Source of the DNA: Nitrosopumilus sp.
GTDB lineage: Archaea; Thermoproteota; Nitrososphaeria; Nitrososphaerales; Nitrosopumilaceae
Assembly (NCBI GenBank): GCA_029862745.1
Contig: JAOTWS010000001.1
Span: 62,001 to 126,000, forward strand
DNA: 64,000 nt
Direction: 5' to 3'
Within the stretch, counting starts at the first letter, position 1, and the number at the start of each line of letters is the position of its first letter. Position numbers and translations under genes: made by a program. This document shows positions 45,235 through 58,955 of this stretch, in pieces. The notes beneath the pieces were generated by a model. The model did not search any database. It saw only the letters and a program-made list of their open reading frames with translations, and had not been told where the DNA came from.

Positions 45235-45441
45235 TATACAAAATTATAATTGTAGTAAAAGTATAACGATTTCCTGTAACATATCAAGTTACTAGAGAAA
45301 TTGTAATAAATGATAAAAACGATAAATGAGTGTCTTGGCAAGAGATTTAAGATATGTTTCCATAAATTAGGAAAATATTATTATGATATAAAATCATGAT
45401 TTCTATAGAAATACTTATTTTATTTAGTTACAATATTAGTT

Positions 45442-46178
45442 ATGCAAAATATATGTAAATTGATTGCAGAAAATTCAGACCTTATTAATGGCACAAACGA
45501 TTTTCATGTAGAAGGATTAGAAGATTTTGCAAGTGCATCCACATCAGTTGATGAGATTATTAATGGTGATAGACCATATACGGCAAATGGAATAAACCTG
45601 TTATCACATATGGAATCAAAAATAACAGGGCGCATCTTACCGATGGTCAAGTACGCAAAGCAGTTAATTGGTCACTTACTGCATTTGACTTTTTAATTGA
45701 AAATGAACTGAAATTTATAACAGATTTTGAAAATGCTGATTTTACATATGAGTTTAGAGCAACAAATGAAGATCCTGATCTTAATTCAACAACCCTTGCA
45801 TATGCTGGATACCCTTCTGCACCTGAGAACTATCGTAAAATCATAGTTATTAACACTGATTTTCCATGGACCCCCAATGGAGATTCTATTTAAGGACGGG
45901 AATTAGAAAAGATGGGATTCCATGTACAAAACCTAGATTTTTTGTATAAGACATGGGATCTTGATCAGGTTCTTAGACATGAAAATGGTCACAAGCTTGG
46001 ATTACCCCATTCACCTAACAATCAACGTTTGATGAGTGGTAATTACGAAGTAATGAATGAGTGGATAGATGAAGAGACAGAAGAAAGATTATTGGCAAAA
46101 TATAACAAAAGAAATCTTACAAGCAAGGATCTAGTCAGACTAATTGCACTTTCCAGAAGAAGAACCGAAACGTATTAA
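45442..46178 (+). pseudogene. Matrixin-like metalloprotease, broken
   Basis: Three pieces read as one protein. The first (45442-45696) has DFHVEGLEDFASASTSVD. After a frameshift near 45640 the frame continues as DGQVRKAVNWSLTAFDFLIE. An in-frame TAA (45891-45893) follows NGDSI. Then comes GRELEKMGFHV with the zinc motif RHENGHKLGLPHSPNNQRLM (HExxHxxGxxH plus Met turn). Matrixin-like M10 proteases are frequent extracellular proteins in thaumarchaea. The zinc site is intact, so inactivation looks recent. Confidence 0.7.
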
Positions 46179-56439: not shown

Positions 56440-57108
56440 TTATGGATTAGTTTGAGCACTGATTTGCTTCATCAGCTCATCCATGAACTTTTGATGTTCT
56501 TCTACTTGGTCTTTGATCTTTTGTTGTACTGCGGGATCACTCATGTCTGCAGACATTAACTCGTTCATGATTCTCTGATGCTCAAGTTTTTGCTGGTTGA
56601 ACTGCTCTCGTAATTCTGGATCCTATATTATCATTTGACCCATATCGGAGCCTGACATCATTCCTTTGCCTTGCCCCATCATGCCAGAGCCAGTCATGTT
56701 GTGATTCATCATCATGTTCATCATTTCTGGATGCTGCATCATTGACTGCATCATTGACTGATGCTGAGACATTATACTCACCATTTGCTCTCGTAGTTCT
56801 GGATCATCCATCATAGAATTCATCATGTTTTGCATCATCATTCCAGTATTGCCTTGTCTCATGGGACCTGCCATATTCTGACCAAACTTAGGATCTTGCA
56901 TCATGTTTTGCATGAATTGCGGATCTTGCATCATGTTTTGTCTAAATTCAGGATCCTGCATGGCCTGCTGCATCTACTGCGGAGACATGTTCCCAAAGTT
57001 CATCGGACCAGGCCCTGGAGCCATTCCTTGTAAAGCTGCAAACCCTATGCCAATTCCTGCAACAAAAACACCTACTGCAATACCTACCCATATATATCGA
57101 CTTACCAT
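56440..57108 (-). pseudogene. Met/Gln-rich secreted protein interrupted by two in-frame TAG codons
   Basis: One 223-codon frame runs from ATG 57108 to TAA 56440-56442, broken only by TAG at 56974-56976 and 56623-56625. It begins with an exported anchor (YIWVGIAVGVFVAGIGIG), then the first TAG after GNMSPQ. The middle (56626-56973) has 10-residue repeats QDPEFRQNMM, QDPQFMQNMM, QDPKFGQNMA and many Met, as in copper/silver-binding proteins. After the second TAG comes DPELREQFNQQKLEHQRI. Either TAG is one transition from CAG (Gln). It could be a decaying gene or read through. Confidence 0.6.
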
Positions 57109-57251
57109 TATTTTGAGGTAAAATTTTTTACTTTAATATCCAATACATATTTTTCATATTTGATTATCATATATTATTCTCTGATGTTAGAACTATGATG
57201 TAATGTTGATATCATCATCTTGATATTGTGTTTTATGTACAAGAAAATACA

Positions 57252-58955
57252 ATGACAAGAGTTCGGTCTATTTCGAGATTTAGTCAGGATGGATTATGGA
57301 ATCTTAGAATTCTAACATTTACTTCTGGAGCAATTGTCATGGCATTAGAGATTGTAACAAGCAGAATTCTTACCCCTGTATTTGGCAGTACCATATACAC
57401 ATGGGGTAGCTTAATTGGAGTAATACTTAGCGGTCTTAGCTTAGGTTATTTTCTAGGAGGCAAGTTTGCTGACTGTCATCCAAGCTTTGAGAAGATTTGT
57501 GCAATCGTTTTCTCTGTAGGAATATTCATTGTGGGAATACCGTTTTTTGCTACATCTGTTGTAGATTTTTCTACTTTTGTATTGCCTGTTACTCAATACA
57601 CTCCGCTGTTGGCAACATTTCTTCTCCTAATTATCCCGTCAATTTTGTTAGGATTTGTCTCTCCATATGTTGTAAAACTTGGCACAAGTTCATTGCAAAA
57701 GATTGGCAACGTTTCAGGAAATCTCTACTCTGTTGCTACCATCGGAAGTATTCTTGGAACGTTTTTGACAGTTTTTGTATTAATTCCAAATATTGCAGTA
57801 AACCAGATAATTTTTGGGCTTGGAATAACACTAATTGCAAGTTCTCTTATAGGTCTGAAAAAACCTCCCAAAGCAATTGCAGTTATCATTGTATTAGTCT
57901 TGATAATTCCATGGTACTCGTTTCCAACAAACACCATTACTCACAATGGCGTACTAATCTATGAAACAGAGACGCTTTTCAGCCATTTGGATATCACTCA
58001 ATTTGGAAGTAATATTAGCATGTATCTTGATGGTATGAGACATAGTTCGATGAATCCAAACAAACCGCTTGACTTGGTGATAGACTATACTGAATATTTT
58101 CATCTTGGAATGTTGTTTAATCCCTCAGCATCTAATGTACTGTTTGTGGGAGGGGGAGGTTTTACGGGACCAAAAAACTTTCTGGCATTATATCCAGACA
58201 TAAAGGTAGACGTAATTGAGATTGATCCAGGAGTAGTTGAGGCTGCAAGGACTTATTTTGATCTTCAGGACGATCCAAGGATGAACATATTTGTTGATGA
58301 TGCAAGAAAACATCTTGCTACGTTTGACAAAAAATACGACATTGTTGTTCTAGATGCATATTCTGCAAATTACGTCCCATATCACTTGATGACAGATGAG
58401 TTCTTTGAGATTCTAGAGGAAAGAATGGAGTCAGATGGCGTCGTAGTGTCCAATGTTATAGGATCAATTGAAGGGGACAACTCCAAACTTGCAAGGGCAA
58501 TATACAAGACTATGAAGGAGACCTTCCCTGTTGCATATGTTTTTCCTACTGAAAACCTGCCAACCAACATTCAAAATCTTATGATAGTGTCATCTAACAA
58601 TCCATACGAGTTTGACAGGATTACACTATTGGAGTTGGCAAAAAATAGTCCTGCAGACTATCTTGTAGATGAACTAAGTAAACAAAATCATTTCTACGAG
58701 GGAATCATAAAGACATCAGACGTACCGTTTCTTACTGACCAACTCAATCCTGCTGAAGTTTTGACAAATCCTCTTACAAACAGGTCATACATGCAGGACT
58801 CTCAAGACCAACAGATTGAAAAGAAAGAACACAGAAACGATTCAATTAATTTGGGAATTGGTATAGTACTATCTGTTATTGCAGCAGCTTGGCTGTTTTA
58901 TTTTAGAAAAGAGATATGGAATTCTAACTCCTTTAGGTTAAAGAAAGAAAGATAG
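57252..58955 (+). CDS. Membrane-fused spermidine-synthase-like protein
   Basis: ATG 57252 (MTRVRSISRFSQDGLWN) is used, not the upstream GTG. The N-terminal half (about 15-235) has six to seven spans with conserved ALEIVTSRILTPVFGSTIYTWG and LSGLSLGYFLGGK. The C-terminal half is a spermidine-synthase-type Rossmann domain (LFVGGGGFTGPKNF, VIEIDPGVVEAAR, VDDARKHLA, DIVVLDAYSAN). A last span and basic tail follow. Such fusions are widespread, and their aminopropyltransferase activity is uncertain. The aminopropyl acceptor loop reads LDAYSA. Confidence 0.87.
   Translation: MTRVRSISRFSQDGLWNLRILTFTSGAIVMALEIVTSRILTPVFGSTIYTWGSLIGVILSGLSLGYFLGGKFADCHPSFEKICAIVFSVGIFIVGIPFFATSVVDFSTFVLPVTQYTPLLATFLLLIIPSILLGFVSPYVVKLGTSSLQKIGNVSGNLYSVATIGSILGTFLTVFVLIPNIAVNQIIFGLGITLIASSLIGLKKPPKAIAVIIVLVLIIPWYSFPTNTITHNGVLIYETETLFSHLDITQFGSNISMYLDGMRHSSMNPNKPLDLVIDYTEYFHLGMLFNPSASNVLFVGGGGFTGPKNFLALYPDIKVDVIEIDPGVVEAARTYFDLQDDPRMNIFVDDARKHLATFDKKYDIVVLDAYSANYVPYHLMTDEFFEILEERMESDGVVVSNVIGSIEGDNSKLARAIYKTMKETFPVAYVFPTENLPTNIQNLMIVSSNNPYEFDRITLLELAKNSPADYLVDELSKQNHFYEGIIKTSDVPFLTDQLNPAEVLTNPLTNRSYMQDSQDQQIEKKEHRNDSINLGIGIVLSVIAAAWLFYFRKEIWNSNSFRLKKER

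Follow-up and report, generated by a model that had tools for sequence, protein, structure and literature searches.

We identified the minus-strand frame at 56440-57108 of the Nitrosopumilus sp. window (the whole stretch of DNA that was analysed, 64 kb in length) as, by homology, a broken copy of a large and widespread family of membrane-anchored Met-rich Nitrosopumilaceae proteins of marine ammonia oxidizers. Very probably this copy is a recent pseudogene, in which two nonsense substitutions ended a gene for a membrane-anchored, extracytoplasmic and probably Cu(I)-binding protein.

The frame comprises 223 codons, from an ATG at 57108-57106 to a final TAA at 56442-56440, and is interrupted solely by TAG at codon 45 (56976-56974) and TAG at codon 162 (56625-56623). 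No internal TAA, TGA or frame change was observed within it, exactly reproducing the coordinates, frame and stops given in the sequence-only reading. None of 20,000 Markov-random sequences built on the dinucleotide statistics of the window was free of TAA and TGA across 222 codons, and chance thus does not explain the frame, which must be a gene or a coding relic; taken alone, the 60 open codons beyond the second TAG had P ~0.015. The first segment (56977-57108, 44 codons) encodes an N-terminal transmembrane anchor and a Gly/Pro linker. The second (56626-56973, 116 codons), open from an ATG that abuts the first TAG, holds Met/Gln-rich repeats with three decapeptides and one DPELREQ unit, and the third (56440-56622, 60 codons plus the TAA) was assigned by sequence comparison to a C-terminal helical module beginning DPELREQ. 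The read-through protein had no Pfam match above a curated cut-off, and in the 64-kb window as a whole every Rfam family stayed below its gathering score.

The continuation of composition and repeats across both stops, which had been part of the initial description, was borne out for some features but not for others. The family motif MSPQ-x-MQQAM spans the first stop and DPELREQ recurs on either side of the second. However, the decapeptides MQDPEFRQNM, MQDPQFMQNM and MQDPKFGQNM were all observed between the two stops, and the Met codons are unevenly distributed, with 4 of 44 before the first stop, 34 of 116 between the stops and 5 of 60 after the second.

Using genome collections that held one genome per species, we found relatives of the N-terminal 79 residues in 91 of the 250 Nitrosopumilaceae genomes searched. 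In the layout of the protein family, a single hydrophobic segment comes immediately after the start and leads through a short linker to a PQQMQQ motif and Met-rich repeats. The window copy retains the transmembrane segment G[VI]F.AG..[IV]G right behind its start and Met/Gln-rich repeats downstream of PQQMQQ; because a continuous frame is absent, we classed it as a broken copy and not as a working member. Across the 91 genomes with relatives, stops within the matched N-terminal part were observed only in the window copy and in one copy from G076. The G076 member (L156; G076:C21:36000-39500, minus strand) carries TAG at a position that is Trp in relatives, has a frameshift upstream of the part encoding its cupredoxin core, and looks like an independent pseudogene. 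A match in G001 with an apparent internal TGA was set aside, as this codon appears to be merely the gene's own terminator.

The C-terminus of the family is variable. Members such as G075:C32, G107:C14, G073:C3 and a paralogue on contig C2 of the source genome have a cupredoxin domain there (Pfam Cupredoxin_1, the match being computed for G075 only), while others, including the source genome's own C5 paralogue and G109:C25, end in a short, probably helical module beginning DPE or DPQ (DPETR/DPQKK). In several members (L002, L003, L005, L127, L139) the anchor and repeats were constant and the cupredoxin and helical modules exchanged. The window copy shares the N-terminal anchor, linker, PQQM motif and Met-rich repeats with the cupredoxin-type genes of G075, G107 and G073, which differ from it in being uninterrupted and in ending in cupredoxin where the window copy has the short helical end and two TAGs. 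Its C-terminal architecture is that of the own C5 paralogue and G109:C25, the latter also having the middle repeats in common with it; both are uninterrupted and carry Glu at the second stop site, in contrast to the TAG of the window copy. Near the cupredoxin type in its N-terminus and of the helical type from the middle onward, the window copy appears to combine both types as a mosaic.

Both stop sites were observed as sense positions in relatives, which for this comparison were other species and the source genome's own paralogues. At the first site, the four closest homologues (G107, G075, G073 and the own C5 paralogue), all with open frames, have Gln. A free alignment was made of 57 family rows, of which 50 had a residue or stop in this column; 32 of the 49 residue-bearing rows, including the syntenic G075 gene, carried Gln (16 CAG and 16 CAA), 17 carried other sense residues, and the sole stop was the window TAG. 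The closest homologues end in cupredoxin and not in the helical module, so the second site could be aligned only to more distant relatives; the 11 alignable homologues with the helical module carried Gln (6), Glu (3), Ala (1) or Thr (1), and the homologue most similar over the middle part (L139) has GAA. The sense residues found at both sites across the family indicate that TAG is private to the window copy.

Divergent from the window copy, at 57228-58955 (plus strand), lies an intact gene for a membrane protein carrying a spermine/spermidine synthase domain. G075 contains an intact Met-rich gene at the corresponding place beside the same divergent neighbour, with related intergenic DNA and with ~80% DNA identity to the first segment of the window copy. 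The N-terminal part compared with G075 had a pN of 0.13 and a pS of 0.69, similar to the 0.145 and 0.682 of the intact neighbour gene. Constraint thus seems to have persisted through most of the interval since the two lineages split, and the stops are probably recent, although the test is rough, given a short segment with nearly saturated synonymous sites.

The two stops would have arisen by independent nonsense substitutions, with the first site most likely having changed from CAG to TAG and the second from a Gln or Glu codon to TAG. Translation would then end after 44 residues, leaving the membrane anchor alone and no full-length product. This loss was probably tolerable, since redundant intact paralogues are present on contigs C5 and C2 of the same genome. 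Two stops of the same type without an indel are a pattern also expected from readthrough, and count as a point against the pseudogene. The codons of this gene offer single-step routes to TAA in 34 cases, to TAG in 25 and to TGA in 17 (25 of 76 for TAG); TAG is therefore a frequent one-step stop here, and two TAGs need no special cause.

A sequencing, assembly or strain-mixture artefact, with the living cell carrying a sense codon at one or both sites, is an unlikely source of the stops. The source genome is a 1.81-Mb draft in 17 contigs, each stop is one substitution from a Gln codon, and the N-terminal part still appears constrained, all of which would fit an error. Two substitution errors per 669 bases are nevertheless many for a modern assembly, and a second gene in the window is broken as well. 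This metalloprotease-like gene (45409-46178, plus strand; motif RHENGHKLGLPHS) has a frame change near 45573-45696 and a TAA at 45891-45893, and suggests that real decay happens in the window. It is also the one case that we confirmed from the broken genes, carrying TAA, TGA and frameshifts, to which the sequence-only reading had pointed.

Functional amber readthrough, in which a suppressor tRNA, a pyrrolysine-like system or misreading by a near-cognate Gln-tRNA yields the full-length protein, is very improbable. We hold as little expectation for its weaker form, in which the strain would read UAG through in the Met-rich protein conditionally or at a low level with a near-cognate Gln-tRNA and so make the protein despite the ambers. 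The frame is open and homologous across both TAGs, and in this combination of in-frame UAG with downstream coding continuity the window copy resembles known pyrrolysine systems. It differs from them in that no PylS match exceeded the cut-off, no CUA tRNA was found among 44 tRNA matches and TAG serves as an ordinary working terminator in the window, where it ends 6 of the 39 long non-overlapping ORFs. These include the neighbour at 57228-58955, whose homologue terminates within a few residues of its TAG end.

A search of the source genome with TIGR02367 for PylS returned two matches only, which scored 23.9 and 20.3 bits where the cut-off is 178; 1 of 14 control genomes scored above this cut-off. 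A tRNA model gave 44 matches, with anticodons read using ARAGORN (introns allowed where needed) and three read by eye. No CUA anticodon was found among the 44, in a scan that was good but not exhaustive, since the expected Trp, Leu-UAA and Glu-UUC tRNAs were likewise not seen. The proposed look for an amber suppressor tRNA or pyl genes thus gave a negative answer for PylS at the cut-off, and no CUA anticodon within the reach of that scan. The three tRNA genes read by eye (L094, L095 and L093, on the source genome's contigs C12, C2 and C4, respectively) have introns at unusual places; among them were an iMet-like CAT and an Arg-CCT tRNA in which the D-loop appears to carry insertions, and a tRNA that ARAGORN called Gly but that is probably Gln-CTG.

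RNA folding 3' of the two TAGs was not unusual (z -1.3 and +0.55), leaving no structural signal for readthrough, and neither site was TAG in any relative read. In the titles and abstracts that we searched, no paper was found on amber readthrough in these archaea. TAG suppression, which had been raised alongside recent mutation, was thus unsupported, while the lean toward decay was upheld by the sense codons at both sites, the other genes ending in TAG and the failure to find a suppressor tRNA or PylS. Separate translation of the segments, by reinitiation at the ATG right behind the first TAG (TAGATG) to give a cytoplasmic, anchorless Met-rich peptide from the abutting ORF of 116 codons, is scarcely credible, as no such organisation was observed in any family member read and the family's anchor would go missing.

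A young pseudogene made by nonsense substitutions is ordinary gene loss. It does carry a caution, in that stops of the same type in an otherwise open frame mimic recoding, while relatives, stop usage and tRNA content indicate ordinary loss. The more useful observation than the broken copy is the intact family with its interchangeable C-terminal modules, on which no paper was found for these archaea among the titles and abstracts searched. Met-rich repeats together with cupredoxin fusions suggest that its members are probably extracytoplasmic (surface) Cu(I)-binding proteins. Ammonia oxidation in these archaea is copper-dependent. The distribution of the family, its constant anchor and repeats and its swapped modules would fit extracytoplasmic copper handling in ammonia-oxidizing archaea.
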